NCBI GenBank assembly: GCA_017592665.1
Contig: JAGFNW010000028.1
Coordinates: 62,001-126,000, forward strand
From: Streptosporangiaceae bacterium NEAU-GS5
Lineage (GTDB): Bacteria; Actinomycetota; Actinomycetes; Streptosporangiales; Streptosporangiaceae
DNA length: 64,000 nucleotides
Direction of reading: 5' to 3'
Positions within the stretch are counted from its first letter, which is position 1. Every line of letters begins with the position of its first letter. Of this stretch, positions 35,194 to 40,369 are shown piece after piece. The notes beneath the pieces were generated by a model, which saw only the letters and a program-made list of their open reading frames with translations, was not told the DNA's origin and searched no databases. A program made the translations under genes and the position numbers.

Positions 35194-36375
35194 GTGTCGT
35201 TGCCACCCTTGGTAGAGCCGGCCGCCGAGCTGACCGTCGACGAGGTGCGCCGCTACTCGCGACATCTGATCATCCCTGACGTGGGAATGGCCGGGCAGAA
35301 ACGACTGAAGAACGCCAAGGTCCTGTGTGTCGGCGCCGGTGGGCTCGGGTCGCCCGCTCTCATGTATCTGGCCGCGGCGGGGGTGGGCACGCTCGGCATC
35401 GTCGATTTCGACATCGTCGACGAGTCCAACCTGCAGCGTCAGATCATCCACGGCCAGTCGGACGTGGGCCGCCTCAAGGCCGAGTCGGCCGCGGCGAGCG
35501 TGCGCGAGATCAATCCCCGCGTCGACGTGGTGATCCACAACGTGGCGCTCACCACCGACAACGTGATGGACATCTTCGCGGGCTACGACCTCATCGTCGA
35601 CGGCACCGACAATTTCGCCACCCGTTACATGGTCAACGACGCGGCGGTGCTGCTCGGCAAGCCCTATGTGTGGGGCTCGATCTACCGGTTCGACGGCCAA
35701 GCCAGCGTCTTCTGGGCCGAGCACGGGCCGTGCTACCGCTGCCTCTACCCGGAGCCCCCACCTCCCGGCATGGTGCCGTCGTGCGCCGAGGGCGGCGTGC
35801 TCGGCGTGCTCTGCGCGTCGATCGGGTCCATCCAGGTCAACGAGGCCATCAAGGTCATCACGGGCATAGGCGACCCGCTGGTCGGGCGTCTGATGATCTA
35901 CGACGCGCTCGAGATGAAGTATCGCGACGTGAAGGTGCGCAAGGATCCCGAGTGCGTCCTCTGCGGCAAGAACCCGACCGTCACCCAGCTGCTCGACGAC
36001 TACGAGGCCTTCTGCGGCACGATCTCCGACGAGGCGGCGCAGGCGGCGAGCGGCTCGACCATCACGGCCGCCGAGCTGAAGCAGATGCAGGACCGCGGCG
36101 ACAACATCTACCTGATCGACGTCCGCGAGCCCAACGAGTACGAGATCGTCAGCATCCCTGGCGCCGTGCTGATCCCCAAGGGCGAGTTCCTGAACGGCGC
36201 GGCGCTGTCGGGCATGCCCCAGGACAAGCGGATCGTGCTGCACTGCAAGTCCGGCGCCCGGTCGGCCGAGGTGCTGGCCGTGCTGAAGAACGCGGGCTTC
36301 TCCGATGCCGTGCACGTGGGCGGCGGCGTGCTCAGCTGGATCAAGACGGTCGACCCCTCGCTGCCGACATACTGA
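35194..36375 (+). CDS. moeZ: MoeZ/MoeB-type sulfur-carrier adenylyltransferase/sulfurtransferase
   Basis: A 393-residue two-domain protein. The N-terminal ThiF/E1-like adenylyltransferase has the nucleotide loop GAGGLGSPALMYLAAAGVG (about 48-66), zinc-binding CxxC pairs (CYRCLYP and CVLCGKN), and Arg/Asp residues of the ATP site. The C-terminal rhodanese domain (about 295-390) carries the active Cys in LHCKSGARSAEVL. MoeZ activates and sulfurates ubiquitin-like carriers for molybdopterin, cysteine or thiotemplate pathways. It corresponds to Rv3206c in the conserved block. GTG 35194 is the start. Confidence 0.94.
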   Translation: MSLPPLVEPAAELTVDEVRRYSRHLIIPDVGMAGQKRLKNAKVLCVGAGGLGSPALMYLAAAGVGTLGIVDFDIVDESNLQRQIIHGQSDVGRLKAESAAASVREINPRVDVVIHNVALTTDNVMDIFAGYDLIVDGTDNFATRYMVNDAAVLLGKPYVWGSIYRFDGQASVFWAEHGPCYRCLYPEPPPPGMVPSCAEGGVLGVLCASIGSIQVNEAIKVITGIGDPLVGRLMIYDALEMKYRDVKVRKDPECVLCGKNPTVTQLLDDYEAFCGTISDEAAQAASGSTITAAELKQMQDRGDNIYLIDVREPNEYEIVSIPGAVLIPKGEFLNGAALSGMPQDKRIVLHCKSGARSAEVLAVLKNAGFSDAVHVGGGVLSWIKTVDPSLPTY

Positions 36376-36426: not shown

Positions 36427-37155
36427 GTGGAAGAGGAAGGTGAGCGGCGGGCGTGGCCGGCCTTGGTCGTCACGTCCGCTCTCGCGTTCACCTGCGGGCT
36501 CATCGCTCTTGCCGCGGCCGTCGCCGCGGGCGCCGAGCTGACCCGCGGGCCGAGCGGCGCCGAGCTGCGGCAGGCCGCCGCCACCGAGGTCGCCCAGCGC
36601 TGGCAGACCTGGCCCGCCGGAAAGATCTTCCCGGAGACCATCGGCTACAAGGGCGAGCAGGGCGGCAGTGAGCGCGCCCGCCGCGTGGGGATCTCCAGCC
36701 GGATCGACTGCGCCGCGGCCGTCGACGCGCCGCTCCGCGCGGCCGTGCGGGCCGCCGGGTGCCTGGCCATCATCCGCGCCACCTATCTCGACGAACTGCA
36801 GGGCATCGTCGTGACGCTCGGCGTGGCCGCCTTCCCCGACCCCGCCGCGGCCGCGACCGCCAAGGCCGTCTTCCCCCAGGCCGGCAAGGCCTCGCCCGGG
36901 CTTCGCGCGCTCGCCTTCACCGGCACCGTCTCCGACCACTTCACCGCGGCCGTACGGCAGGCCGGCACGATCCGGCAGGCCGGGCCGTACGTGGTGATGA
37001 CCACGGCGGGCCAGGTCGACGGGCGGCCGGCACGGGCCATCGCGCGGCAGCGGCCCACCCTGTTCACCTTCACCGCCGATCTCGCCGACAGCGTCGCCAT
37101 GACGCTGGCCACCCCCGCCACTCCTGACTGCGCGGGCGAGGGGTGGACGTGCTGA
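36427..37155 (+). CDS. Membrane-anchored protein of S8-protease module 1
   Basis: A 242-residue protein with one N-terminal membrane helix (ALVVTSALAFTCGLIALAAAVA) and an extracytoplasmic domain: VAQRWQTWPAGKIFPE, RRVGISSRIDC, VDAPLRAAVRAAGCLAIIRATYLDE and a TPDCAGEGWTC end. Its domain is paralogous to the protein at 38367-39206. No known family was recognised. Its stop overlaps the following S8 peptidase start by 7 nt (GTGCTGA), so the two are co-translated and probably interact. GTG 36427 is the start. Confidence 0.8.
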   Translation: MEEEGERRAWPALVVTSALAFTCGLIALAAAVAAGAELTRGPSGAELRQAAATEVAQRWQTWPAGKIFPETIGYKGEQGGSERARRVGISSRIDCAAAVDAPLRAAVRAAGCLAIIRATYLDELQGIVVTLGVAAFPDPAAAATAKAVFPQAGKASPGLRALAFTGTVSDHFTAAVRQAGTIRQAGPYVVMTTAGQVDGRPARAIARQRPTLFTFTADLADSVAMTLATPATPDCAGEGWTC

Positions 37156-38357
37156 GGCTCCCGGCCGCGCTGCTCGCGCTCACCGCCTTCCTCGCCGCCT
37201 TCGTCAGCACGGCTCTGGCCGACGACGTGCGCGGCAGCCAGGAGCGCGTGCTGCACACGCTCGACGTGAACGACGCCTGGCAGATCACCAAAGGCACAGG
37301 GATCACCGTCGCCGTGCTCGACTCGGGTGTCGACGGCCGGCACATGGATCTCGCCGGATCCGTGACCGCAGGCAAGGACTTCACCGCCGGCGCCAATCCG
37401 CCGGGCACCGCGCCGGTCCGGTTGCACGGCACCTACATGGCCTCGCTGATCGCGGGGCACGGCCACGGGCCGGGCGGGCAGGACGGCGTGGTCGGCGTCG
37501 CGCCGCAGGCGAGGATCCTGTCGGTCCGGGTGATCCTGGAGGACGAGGAGCCGGGCTTCCACGAGTTCAACTCCGACGCCCGATATGAGGATGTGGTGGC
37601 CCGCGGCATCCGCTACGCGGTCGACCACGGCGCCGACGTGATCAACCTGTCGATCTCCAAGGATCTGCCGACCGAGGCCGAGCGTGACGCGATTCGCTAC
37701 GCGATCGGCAAGGGCGTCGTGCTGGTCGCGGCGGCCGGAAACGACGGCGACGGCAAGTCCACCGCTCCCTACTCCTATCCGGCGGCCTTCCCGGGCGTCA
37801 TCTCGGTGGCCGCGGCGACGAGCGGCATGCGGCGGGCCTCGTTCTCCAACCGCAACTCCTCGGTCATGGTGGCCGCGCCGGGGGTGGATGTGCTCGGGGC
37901 CGGTCCCAACAACGAATACTGGGTCGGCCGCGGCACCTCCCAGGCCACCGCCCTGGTGTCGGGCGTGGTGGCGCTCATCAAAGCCCGTTATCCGAAGATG
38001 TCGCCCGCGCTGGTGGCCCAGGCCTTGAGCGCCTCCGGGCAGGGGGCGTACAACATGGGGACCGGCTTCGGGGTCATCAACGCCTATCGAGCGCTGAACG
38101 AGGCGGCCCGGCTGTCCCGGCATCGCGCCGTCGCGTCCGGTCCGGGCGTCCAGGATCCCAAGCGCCGGCTCGCGAAGGCGGGAGCGGTCCACAGAGTGCC
38201 GATCATCCGGCGCGACCACCGGGCCATCGCCGTTTTCGGGGCGATCGCGCTCGGCGGCCTGCTCGCCGCGGGCGCGGCCGTGGCTGCGATGATCGTCCTC
38301 ATACGACGCTCCAGAAGACCTGGCTTCCGTCCGTTGGAGTTGGTCACAAAGGGGTAA
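37149..38357 (+). CDS. S8 serine peptidase, mycosin-like, catalytically intact
   Basis: A 402-residue subtilisin-family protease with a signal peptide (LRLPAALLALTAFLAAFVS), a catalytic domain and a C-terminal membrane helix (AVFGAIALGGLLAAGAAVAA), the MycP/mycosin layout. The triad is complete: Asp in VAVLDSGVDG, His in RLHGTYMASLIAG, Ser in GRGTSQATALVSG, plus oxyanion Asn in AAAGNDG. GTG 37149, behind GAGGGG at 37138-37143, is preferred to GTG 37143. Mycosins normally accompany type VII secretion, but no ESX genes are present here. It is encoded with the membrane protein upstream. Confidence 0.9.
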   Translation: MLRLPAALLALTAFLAAFVSTALADDVRGSQERVLHTLDVNDAWQITKGTGITVAVLDSGVDGRHMDLAGSVTAGKDFTAGANPPGTAPVRLHGTYMASLIAGHGHGPGGQDGVVGVAPQARILSVRVILEDEEPGFHEFNSDARYEDVVARGIRYAVDHGADVINLSISKDLPTEAERDAIRYAIGKGVVLVAAAGNDGDGKSTAPYSYPAAFPGVISVAAATSGMRRASFSNRNSSVMVAAPGVDVLGAGPNNEYWVGRGTSQATALVSGVVALIKARYPKMSPALVAQALSASGQGAYNMGTGFGVINAYRALNEAARLSRHRAVASGPGVQDPKRRLAKAGAVHRVPIIRRDHRAIAVFGAIALGGLLAAGAAVAAMIVLIRRSRRPGFRPLELVTKG

Positions 38358-38366
38358 CATCATGGT

Positions 38367-39206
38367 ATGCCGCCCGAGTCGCGCCGTTCGCCCGTTAGTC
38401 GTGCGCGCGCGCGTCCCTGGCCGGCTTCCCGTGGGCGCGCCGCCGCGGCCAAGGCGGCCCGCGAGCGGGCTGAGCTGGAACGCGGCATCCGTTACCGCTC
38501 GATCCTGATGATCCTGGTGGGCGCCGTGCTGGCGGTCGGCGCCGTCAACGTCCTGCTCGGCACGCTCGGCCTGGTGCAGGAGACGAGGTCGCGCCCGCTC
38601 ACCGTCGAGGAGCGCGACCGGTATGTGCAGGAGGACGTGGCCCGCCGGTGGCACGCCTGGCCGATCGGCATGGTCTTTCCTGAAGAGCTGGAATACACCG
38701 GTTTGGGGCGCACCCAGCTGTTCGCGCGACGGGTCGGCATCGCGCCCGAAGCCCCGTGCACGGCCGTGGTCGACGCTCCGGTGGCGTCCGTTCTGAAGGA
38801 GACCGGCTGCCTGACCATGCTCCGGGCCACCTATGTGGATCAGACCTCGACCTTCGCCATCACGGTCGGCGTGGCCGTGCTGCCCGACGAGGAGACGCGG
38901 GTGGCCGCCTCGGCGCGGCTGCCGGTCGACGATCGGGTGGGGGTCCGTCCCGTGGCGTTCCCCGGCACGGTGACCGACCGGTTCGGCGCGGCGCAACGGC
39001 AGCGCACCGGCTGGGTGGGCGCCGGGCCGTACATCGTCTTTTCCAGCGTCGGCTACACCGACGGCCGGACCAGGGAGTCGGTGCCGCCGGAGGAGCTGCT
39101 GAACGCCGAGCTGTGGCCGACCGCGCAGGCCATCGCCGGGCGGATCGCCCGGTTCCTGGCAGAACCCCCCGACGTCCCTCGTTGCACCCAGGGGAACGTG
39201 TGCTGA
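38367..39206 (+). CDS. Membrane-anchored protein of S8-protease module 2
   Basis: A 279-residue paralogue of the protein at 36427-37155, with a basic cytosolic N-terminus, one membrane helix (ILMILVGAVLAVGAVNVLL) and an extracytoplasmic domain (VARRWHAWPIGMVFPEELEY, RRVGIAPEAPC, VDAPVASVLKETGCLTMLRAT). The two conserved Cys align with those of the paralogue. It overlaps the following S8-like gene by 7 nt (GTGCTGA), the same junction as module 1. The duplication is therefore of the whole two-gene unit. Confidence 0.8.
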   Translation: MPPESRRSPVSRARARPWPASRGRAAAAKAARERAELERGIRYRSILMILVGAVLAVGAVNVLLGTLGLVQETRSRPLTVEERDRYVQEDVARRWHAWPIGMVFPEELEYTGLGRTQLFARRVGIAPEAPCTAVVDAPVASVLKETGCLTMLRATYVDQTSTFAITVGVAVLPDEETRVAASARLPVDDRVGVRPVAFPGTVTDRFGAAQRQRTGWVGAGPYIVFSSVGYTDGRTRESVPPEELLNAELWPTAQAIAGRIARFLAEPPDVPRCTQGNVC

Positions 39207-40369
39207 AGACCTTCTCGCTCTGTTTCGCGCTCGCCCTCGCCGCACTGCCCGCCGCGCCCGTTCAAGCCGCCCCCAAGCCCGACAAGGCTGGTCAGTCGGA
39301 TCAGTGGATCCTGACCGCCATCGACGTCGCGGAGGCCTGGAAGACCACCAAGGGCGCGGGCGTCACGGTCGCCCTGCTCGAAGGCCGGGTCGACGGCGCG
39401 GTTCCCGAGTTGAAGGGCCGCGTCGTCAGCGGGCCCGACCTGACGGGCCGGATCTTCGGGTCCGACCAGCCCTACGGCGCCGCCACCGCGCTGGCCTCGC
39501 TCATCGCCGGCACCGGCAAGAAGGGCGGGGTGCAGGGCGTGGCCCCCGAGGCGCAGGTGATGTCGATCGCCGTCTCGCAGCCCGCGGTCGAGGGCTCGTT
39601 CGTCGATCCGCAGGCCGAGCCGGACGCCCCGGCCGACAGCCCGCTGGCCCGCGGCATCCGCTACGCCGCCAACCACGGCGCGGCCGTCATCGTGATCCCC
39701 TCCTGGGGGTACGGCGTCGAGCGGCTGGATCGTGACGCCGTGGCGTACGCGCTGGCGAGAGGCTCGGTCGTGATCGCGGGGGTGGGCAACGACGGCGGCA
39801 CCCCCTACAGCCAGGAGAGCGGCACGTCGTTCTGGCAGTTCCCGGCCGGATATCCCGGTGTCATCGGGGTTGCCGCGTCCGACAAGCAGGGCGCGCACGC
39901 GCCGTTCAGCAGCGACAATCTGTCCGTCCTGGTGGCGGCGCCGGGCGTCGACCTGCCGGTGGTGCAGGCCGGCGGCAAGCGCGCCAAGGGCTCGGGGAGC
40001 GAGGGCTCGGCGGCCCTGGTCGCCGGCGTCGCCGCGCTCGTGAAGGCCAAGTATCCCGAGCTCAAGCCCGAGTTCGTGGCCCGCGCGCTGGCCGAGACGG
40101 CGCGCCCGCACCCGCCCGCCGGCTACGACGACAAGGTCGGCTTCGGCGTGGTCGACGCGAGCGCCGCGCTCACCAGGGCCGGTCAGCTGGGCGGCTACCA
40201 GCGCGCGATCGTCGGCGACGACGACCTCCACTTCGGGCACGGCATGCTGTCGAAAGGACCCGAGCCGCCCGGGCCGGATCCGATTAGGCTGTGGGTCTAC
40301 GGCGCCGGCGTGCTGATCGGCATCGCGGCCTTCTCGGGCGCCGTGGTGATCCTCGCGAAACGCCGGTGA
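39200..40369 (+). CDS. S8 pseudopeptidase, mycosin-like, catalytic triad lost
   Basis: A 389-residue paralogue of the S8 protease at 37149-38357 with signal peptide, peptidase fold and C-terminal membrane helix. The triad is replaced: Asp to Glu (VALLEGRVDG versus VAVLDSGVDG), His to Tyr (PYGAATALASLIAG versus LHGTYMASLIAG), and Ser to Glu (GSGSEGSAALVAG versus GRGTSQATALVSG). The oxyanion Asn remains (GVGNDG). The fold residues are kept and the frame is open, so it looks like a maintained non-catalytic partner rather than a dying gene. GTG 39200 follows AGGGGAAC. Confidence 0.88.
   Translation: MLKTFSLCFALALAALPAAPVQAAPKPDKAGQSDQWILTAIDVAEAWKTTKGAGVTVALLEGRVDGAVPELKGRVVSGPDLTGRIFGSDQPYGAATALASLIAGTGKKGGVQGVAPEAQVMSIAVSQPAVEGSFVDPQAEPDAPADSPLARGIRYAANHGAAVIVIPSWGYGVERLDRDAVAYALARGSVVIAGVGNDGGTPYSQESGTSFWQFPAGYPGVIGVAASDKQGAHAPFSSDNLSVLVAAPGVDLPVVQAGGKRAKGSGSEGSAALVAGVAALVKAKYPELKPEFVARALAETARPHPPAGYDDKVGFGVVDASAALTRAGQLGGYQRAIVGDDDLHFGHGMLSKGPEPPGPDPIRLWVYGAGVLIGIAAFSGAVVILAKRR

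Follow-up and report, generated by a model that had tools for sequence, protein, structure and literature searches.

Here, we analysed a 64,000-nt stretch (hereinafter, the window) of contig JAGFNW010000028.1 of Streptosporangiaceae bacterium NEAU-GS5, in which two successive two-gene units, at positions 36427-40369, each encode a partner protein with a single membrane span (PA1 and PA2) and a protease of the S8 family (S8-1 and S8-2). The locus probably encodes a sensor-protease pair in which the second protease has turned into a conserved scaffold or regulator with no catalytic role. The units are products of a duplication and are held in synteny among related genomes; S8-2 lost its catalytic residues in one group of these genomes, where the gene has retained an open frame, the predicted fold and sequence constraint. 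The repeat of the two units is a true duplication because partners and S8 proteins each align as paralogues, PA1 and PA2 with 43% identity over 147 amino acids (E 8e-38) and S8-1 and S8-2 with 39% identity over 316 amino acids (E 8e-51). Both S8 proteins exceed the Pfam cut-off of 21.8 bits for PF00082 (157.6 bits for S8-1 and 84.3 for S8-2), and a signal peptide and a C-terminal anchor can be read in each of the two sequences.

Loss of the catalytic triad in the second protease

Our main set of loci comes from the best 80 of 108 relatives found in a scan with a PA2 profile; it partly overlaps an earlier search of 60 genomes, and counts from the two are not summed. Triads were compared in 80 rows for S8-1 (the window and 79 loci) and in 81 rows for S8-2 (the window and 80 loci). 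All 80 S8-1 rows carry the canonical Asp, His, oxyanion Asn and Ser (D/H/N/S), including D58, H93 and S264 of the window, as the initial annotation had stated for the first module. The same residues are found in 48 of the 81 S8-2 rows, and the remaining 33 are dead. The window belongs to the latter, with E/A/E in place of Asp, His and Ser, so that its S8-2 is, judging from these residues, a pseudoprotease, i.e., a non-catalytic member of the S8 fold. The initial annotation had given the replaced triad as Glu, Tyr and Glu; both Glu residues (E61 and E268) are correct, but Ala94 stands at the His position, two residues downstream of the Tyr. In Herbidospora and Acrocarpospora, this position of S8-2 is indeed a Tyr. 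The signal peptide, fold, oxyanion Asn and membrane anchor were also said to be kept, and this description holds: Asn197 is present in the sequence, and the structural model shows the subtilisin fold and a helix at the C-terminus.

The dead S8-2 rows belong to Microbispora, Planotetraspora, Microtetraspora, Herbidospora, Acrocarpospora, Sphaerimonospora, the window and the metagenome-assembled genome (MAG) ZC4RG28. Ser is lost in all 33, His and the oxyanion Asn in 32 each, and Asp in 27. At the D/H/N/S places, the patterns are GDDG (13 rows), HYDQ (7), DEDG (4), HYDG (2) and, in one row each, EANE (the window), GADP, GADG, GRDD, DQDG, DHDD and GGDP, and they are mostly uniform inside each genus. 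In 32 of the 33 dead rows, Asn197 is changed to Asp, the window being the one that retains Asn. Ser167 of the substrate strand, which is Ser in all 48 active rows, is likewise Pro in 32 of the 33 dead ones. The S8-2 of MAG ZC4RG28 (L183) retains Asp and His but lacks Ser. One row named Microtetraspora (L151, Microtetraspora sp. NBRC 13810) may carry a wrong name: its S8-2 is active, and it clusters with Thermocatellispora, not with the remaining Microtetraspora rows.

The trees are unrooted with respect to the triad; the direction of change, a loss and not a gain, is inferred from the canonical triad of unit 1 and of the single-unit relatives. When the triad, Asn and Ser167 columns are masked, the S8-2 tree places the 33 dead rows on one side of a branch with a Shimodaira-Hasegawa-like approximate likelihood-ratio (SH-aLRT) support of 95.6, corresponding to one change. 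The locus tree, from which S8-2 was excluded, unites 31 dead rows in one clade (SH-aLRT 99), and a single dead clade is not rejected on these data (approximately unbiased [AU] test, p 0.20). L181, which has no module 1, was left out of the locus tree, and two pieces of L128 were left out of the S8 tree. A separate second loss in MAG ZC4RG28 is disfavoured by its Pro167 and Asp197, by the masked S8-2 tree and by the AU result. Thus, there was probably one loss, with MAG ZC4RG28 as an early branch of it, although the row of this genome is long and its placement uncertain. Under one loss, which is the simpler reading, Ser and Ser167 would have been lost first, and His and Asp afterwards; Asn197 of the window would therefore be a reversal or a parallel case. 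The dead state of S8-2 is derived within one group and is not the defining feature of the layout, because S8-2 is intact in 48 of the 81 rows. The pairing of an active protease with an inactive paralogue proposed in the initial annotation is supported, and the kept frame and conserved partners that it invoked are borne out; purifying selection is seen as well.

A second lineage of dead S8 proteins comprises L092, L096 and L105, where the dead protein is the second of two and follows an active S8, together with L106, at a contig start, and L104, which is alone. That the two dead lineages share one origin is rejected (AU p 0.006, with MAG ZC4RG28 outside the set), so that, by this tree comparison, the dead second unit of L092, L096 and L105 arose independently of the window's group. 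Dead S8 relatives for which no partner was detected also exist (L122, L124, L125, L127 and L128). Among these, the triad is broken in L124, L125, L127 and L128 (EPDA, DRSA, GSDG and one split copy); in the S8 tree, L124, L125 and L127 cluster with the active L097, as a further line of S8 pseudoproteases. The change of the oxyanion Asn to Asp recurs in L122, L124 and L127, which may reflect convergence or merely the easiest mutation.

Constraint on the non-catalytic protein

The ratio of nonsynonymous to synonymous changes (dN/dS) was estimated within genera by the Nei-Gojobori method, with pairs outside dS 0.05-1.2 dropped (1 of 36 in Streptosporangium and 1 of 21 in Planomonospora/Planobispora) and with the window, L181, L183, L136, L141, L151, L154, L165, L169, L201 and L206 left out of the groups. 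The window has no within-genus value because its genus holds one genome. For dead S8-2, dN/dS is 0.22 in Herbidospora, 0.24 in Sphaerimonospora (one pair), 0.27 in Planotetraspora, 0.29 in Microtetraspora, 0.35 in Microbispora and 0.43 in Acrocarpospora (one pair). For active S8-2, the values are 0.26 in Sphaerisporangium, 0.35 in Nonomuraea, 0.48 in Streptosporangium and 0.58 in Planomonospora/Planobispora. In a neutral simulation on three dead S8-2 genes, the medians were 1.04-1.16 and the 2.5% bounds at least 0.83. Thus, dead S8-2 is under purifying selection. Furthermore, all 33 dead copies lie in open stretches of 369-400 codons, as bounded by the profile match; decay of the gene, the outcome against which the initial annotation had asked it to be checked, is not what is seen. 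The partner follows suit, with PA2 dN/dS of 0.12-0.27 in dead groups and 0.26-0.44 in active ones; if anything, the constraint on PA2 is stronger in dead groups than in active ones.

Between the two states, 66 columns of S8-2 are conserved in both, and 22 are conserved in the active state and lost in the dead one, with MAG ZC4RG28 outside the dead set in both counts. The 22 include the triad places, the oxyanion Asn and Ser167, as well as R31, Q34, W36 and V37 of the N-terminal extension. When branch lengths were fitted on one topology (76 rows, five of the 81 rows lacking a gene being dropped), the stem of the dead clade measured 0.036-0.112 in six other genes, compared with 0.266 in S8-2. 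Relative to the length of each gene's own tree, this stem amounts to 1.43% for S8-2, 1.31% for moeZ and 0.49-0.84% for the five other genes. A burst of change in S8-2 on the stem is thus suggested, although the moeZ share is close to that of S8-2.

Relation to type VII secretion

Mycosins (MycP) normally serve type VII (ESX) secretion, and their profile, TIGR03921, comes closest among those of NCBIfam to both S8-1 (264.3 bits) and S8-2 (197.8 bits), both scores being below its cut-off of 278.75. The profile matches all 55 aligned S8 rows. At the cut-off, none of 10 mixed module and partnerless rows passes, and 2 of 4 S8 proteins from EccB neighbourhoods miss it as well (266.5 and 269.5 bits); the cut-off does not discriminate ESX-linked from module proteases here. 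L095 (genome G057), a partner-linked S8 from another family with an intact triad, scores 344.1 bits, over the cut-off, with EccB about 4.4 Mb away; naming by profile would label it an ESX mycosin.

A search of the window genome for EccB gave no match, and 19 of 60 genomes were matched in the same search. In a first sample of 14 genomes, EccB was found in 9 of 9 with active S8-2 and in 0 of 5 with dead S8-2; among 78 genomes (L191 and L169 not included), it was found in 36 of 46 and 11 of 32, respectively, counts that are clade-bound and carry no phylogenetic correction. EccB is thus rarer in the dead group, but the idea that S8-2 catalysis was lost together with ESX, perfect in the 14 genomes, was a sampling effect and failed in the 78. 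No EccB match was obtained in 31 of the 78 locus-bearing genomes, many of which are drafts, so that absence is unproven. Together with the moeZ and MGMT-like genes that flank the locus and the lack of an EccB match in the window genome, these counts agree with the initial annotation, which had noted no ESX genes at the locus. Twelve S8 proteins encoded within about 16 kb of EccB are separated from the module proteases by a branch with 99/96 support; alone, these 12 rows do not form one clade (p 0.003) because the L120 and L121 rows fall on the same side. Given the EccB data and the separate branch, the module proteases are mycosin-like but are not ESX mycosins. They resemble MycP in the signal peptide, subtilisin fold and C-terminal anchor, and differ in the lack of an ESX link, in their separate branch and in their partner protein.

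Partner protein and predicted structures

PA2 is well conserved, with 69% mean column identity among 14 orthologues from 14 genus codes. Profile matches of the partners to known domains are weak: PA1 reaches E 0.0037 and 17.6 bits against PknH_C (PF14032; Pfam cut-off 27) and E 0.00086, also below the cut-off, against DUF7373; PA2 gave no match to PF14032 in the Pfam profile search; and PF14032 matches 5 of 59 partner rows, with a best E of 4.8e-7. A model of PA2 from a 59-row alignment (predicted local distance difference test [pLDDT] score of 90.8) combines a long helix at the N-terminus with an alpha/beta domain. Foldseek returned no match for this model at E 0.001, and a PDB sequence search with the PA2 profile was equally negative. 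VIA-align ranked the extracellular domain of PknH (4esq) at the top (Z 9.1, root-mean-square deviation 4.2, 139 residues), followed by TiME, an orthologue of Rv0999 and RseB (Z 6.5-7.2). The partner has four conserved Cys residues, and the PknH domain has two disulfides and, in the available part of its description, a cleft thought to take a small molecule. Based on the top rank in VIA-align, the weak PF14032 matches and the four conserved Cys, the partner is likely to contain a PknH-type sensor domain. The alignment of its model to 4esq, the few PF14032 matches and the four Cys liken it to the PknH-type domains (PF14032) of LpqQ, LprH, LppH, LpqA and Rv3705c (PMC4118811, in the part available); by contrast, the window partners fall below the Pfam cut-off, have no kinase and are paired with a protease. 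Elsewhere in the window genome, two weak partner-like (PknH_C-like) matches occur (L107, G000:C95; 6434-6892 and 10734-11177), the open frames around them being 325 and 1406 codons long, and similar matches recur in many relatives.

The window S8-2 was modelled from a 55-row alignment (mean pLDDT 87.1) as a subtilisin, with a template modelling (TM) score of 0.89 by target length; the C-terminal helix spans residues 361-388. In PADLOC, S8-1 and S8-2 match the generic subtilase model, and S8-1 also weakly matches IetS; neither partner was matched.

Proposed function and alternatives

We propose that the products of the two paralogous units are sensor-protease pairs located at the outer face of the membrane, in which each partner would consist of a single span and a probable PknH-type sensor domain, and each S8 protein would be a membrane-anchored protease of the subtilisin fold, from a mycosin-like clade with no ESX link. 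Unit 1 keeps the triad in every row examined, and unit 2 would have been catalytic ancestrally. In the ancestor of the group that includes the window and, probably, MAG ZC4RG28, S8-2 would have lost Ser and Ser167, then His and, mostly, Asp. From then on, S8-2 was probably kept for its fold rather than its chemistry: within a membrane complex, it would hold PA2, and probably also PA1 and S8-1, and it would tune S8-1.

Several observations weigh against this scenario. The residues at the dead site vary from genus to genus. The dN/dS of the window S8-2, at 0.44-0.54, exceeds that of the window S8-1 (0.28-0.44), and S8-2 is fast-evolving in Microbispora, with dN of 0.144 versus 0.064 for S8-1. 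Among seven genes, the ratio of branch length in the dead clade to that in the rest is highest for S8-2 (0.50), by a small margin over PA1 and the hydrolase (0.49 each), S8-1 (0.46), moeZ (0.41), the MGMT-like gene (0.40) and PA2 (0.35). Covariation of rates fails to single out the cognate pairs (rho 0.37 for PA1 and S8-1, 0.29 for PA2 and S8-2); the highest value belongs to a control pair, S8-2 and the MGMT-like gene (0.42), and the other control, moeZ and the hydrolase, gives 0.32. Finally, the locus tree without S8-2 puts MAG ZC4RG28 next to Sphaerisporangium (support 94), which corresponds to two changes.

Some of these observations would fit a decaying relic, for which the diverse triad residues, the fast Microbispora S8-2 and the top length ratio all speak. 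However, the frame is open in every dead copy, dN/dS is far below the neutral simulation, the gene is kept across at least 6 genera, and 31 of the 33 dead copies have their start codon 4 nt ahead of the stop of PA2, all of which makes decay very improbable. Just as improbable is that both S8 proteins are standard ESX mycosins and that S8-2 ceased to be catalytic when ESX was lost. The universal TIGR03921 match, with a cut-off that does not split the two kinds of protease, and the EccB distribution in the first sample pointed in this direction, but the larger sample, the window genome with no EccB match and the 99/96 branch largely refute it.

The more serious competitor, albeit an unlikely one, is that S8-2 is a ligand or signal receptor, its remodelled former active site binding a molecule or a peptide, as proposed for CspC. 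The recurrent Asp197 and Pro167 of the dead rows, the sensor-like fold of the partner, the PknH version of which is thought to bind a small molecule, and the CspC precedent, as far as the available text of these sources goes, are compatible with such a role. The triad places, however, differ across the dead group (E/A/E, G/D/G, H/Y/Q and D/E/G), the window retains Asn, and the change from Asn to Asp takes one step. The least credible option is that S8-2 performs a different reaction with new acidic residues. Sedolisins carry a set of acidic residues, and the combined changes of His to Asp or Glu and of Asn to Asp in several genera resemble it; nevertheless, the nucleophilic Ser is absent from all dead rows, and the acidic positions vary across the group. 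Thus, we favour a non-catalytic scaffold or regulator, for which there are precedents.

The initial annotation knew of no described system with this layout, which is too strong a statement. According to the available portion of PMC6636752, the clostridial Csp germination subtilases also bring paralogues together, CspB being active and CspA and CspC dead, with triads that are intact in other families and lost in C. difficile and its family. The CspC:CspA heterodimer is described as a signalling node (PMC12880746, in the part available). For mycosins, the accessible text of PMC5082899 reports that they stabilise ESX membrane complexes and that ESX-dependent secretion needs no proteolytic activity of MycP, i.e., a protease-independent role; substrate binding was also dispensable in the authors' mutants, with their own caveat. 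The Csp proteins are soluble spore proteins with a prodomain and a jelly roll; by contrast, the proteins of our locus are membrane-anchored, actinobacterial and each accompanied by a sensor-like partner. Against the CspC profile NF040808, S8-1 scores 25.7 bits (cut-off 675), and S8-2 is not listed. By analogy, the module would work like the Csp pseudoproteases; it is not a member of that family. A search of open-licence papers found none coupling a mycosin with a pseudoprotease and, among the titles listed, none on this locus. We therefore describe a conserved pseudoprotease module, the principle of which is already known, and not a categorically new system.

A broader possibility, which we advance tentatively, is a sensor-gated surface protease machine with no link to secretion, the second unit of which turned into a pseudoprotease more than once (in the window's group and in L092, L096 and L105), with the active and the dead subtilase permanently joined in one regulatory hetero-complex; on the bacterial surface, this would be the equivalent of the principles known from Csp and iRhom. 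If this is true, the switch is caught before, during (MAG ZC4RG28) and after the event, in neighbouring genera. The locus offers a clean natural experiment on the birth of a pseudoenzyme: the same syntenic gene is intact in Sphaerisporangium, Nonomuraea and Streptosporangium and dead but conserved in the neighbouring group, and both sets of genera retain the partner gene and the active paralogue. Mycosin-like proteases thus exist outside type VII secretion, and the question of a fold without chemistry becomes testable by orthologue swaps between non-pathogenic soil actinomycetes.

Layout and distribution of the locus

The window genome (9.96 Mb in 127 contigs) is the only one of its genus among the genomes compared. 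The two units follow each other with 9 bases between them (Table 1), the locus being bounded upstream by a gene that we take, from its family, to be moeZ and downstream by a DNA-methyltransferase-like (MGMT-like) gene. The initial annotation was accurate regarding the two consecutive units of the same design and the identical 7-nt GTGCTGA junctions. The junction arises because the C-terminal Cys of the partner and its stop, TGC TGA, read GTG CTG A in the other frame; this Cys is invariant in 14 PA2 rows and nearly invariant in 59 partner rows. At 77 of 80 module-1 and 70 of 81 module-2 junctions, the nearest start codon precedes the stop of the partner by 4 nt (start use being inferred), a conserved spacing that exceeds chance.

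Table 1. Positions of the genes, junctions and active-site codons of the locus in the window.
Feature	Position	Strand	Description
moeZ-like gene	35194..36375	+	Syntenic flank, outside the system
PA1, module 1 partner	36427..37155	+	N-terminal single span and extracytoplasmic domain; ends in Cys and stop
GTGCTGA overlap, PA1 stop and S8-1 start	37149..37155	+	7 nt
S8-1, module 1 S8 protease	37149..38357	+	Signal peptide, intact D/H/N/S, C-terminal anchor
S8-1 Asp58	37320..37322	+	
S8-1 His93	37425..37427	+	
S8-1 Asn198	37740..37742	+	
S8-1 Ser264	37938..37940	+	
PA2, module 2 partner	38367..39206	+	Single span and PknH-sensor-like domain; conserved Cys 131, 148, 273 and 279
GTGCTGA overlap, PA2 stop and S8-2 start	39200..39206	+	7 nt
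S8-2, module 2 predicted S8 pseudoprotease	39200..40369	+	Signal peptide, subtilisin fold, C-terminal anchor; E61/A94/E268, Asn197 kept
S8-2 Glu61	39380..39382	+	In place of Asp
S8-2 Ala94	39479..39481	+	
S8-2 Asn197	39788..39790	+	
S8-2 Glu268	40001..40003	+	

The order PA1, S8-1, PA2, S8-2 is preserved in 79 of the 80 loci, two of which are truncated (L169 inside PA1 and L206 inside S8-2); the remaining locus, L181, starts at a contig end. Module 2 without module 1, raised earlier as a possibility, occurs in none of the 79 loci whose contig spans both. The moeZ gene lies upstream in 76 of the 80 loci, the misses (L137, L161, L169 and L181) being contig-end cuts, and the MGMT-like gene lies downstream in 79, the miss being a short contig. 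Among the 60 genomes of the earlier search, the window's included, the two-unit locus was read in 14 (the window and L069-L081). In an even draw of 200 genomes from the window's family, 151 contain a match to the PA2 profile at E 1e-20 or better. A wider partner profile at 1e-8 matches 56 of 296 genomes of the class, 28 within the family and 28 outside it (27 in one family code), and the weak matches across the class also take in other PknH_C-like proteins.

At the moeZ-MGMT place, further genera of this family have either one module (L082-L087, L090 and L091, with both flanks; L089, by the MGMT-like gene alone) or two modules (L092; L088, by the MGMT-like gene alone). Off this locus, L100, L101, L102 and L103 are single pairs of partner and S8, all four with an intact triad, and the window genome itself encodes a related S8 (L098) for which no partner was detected.

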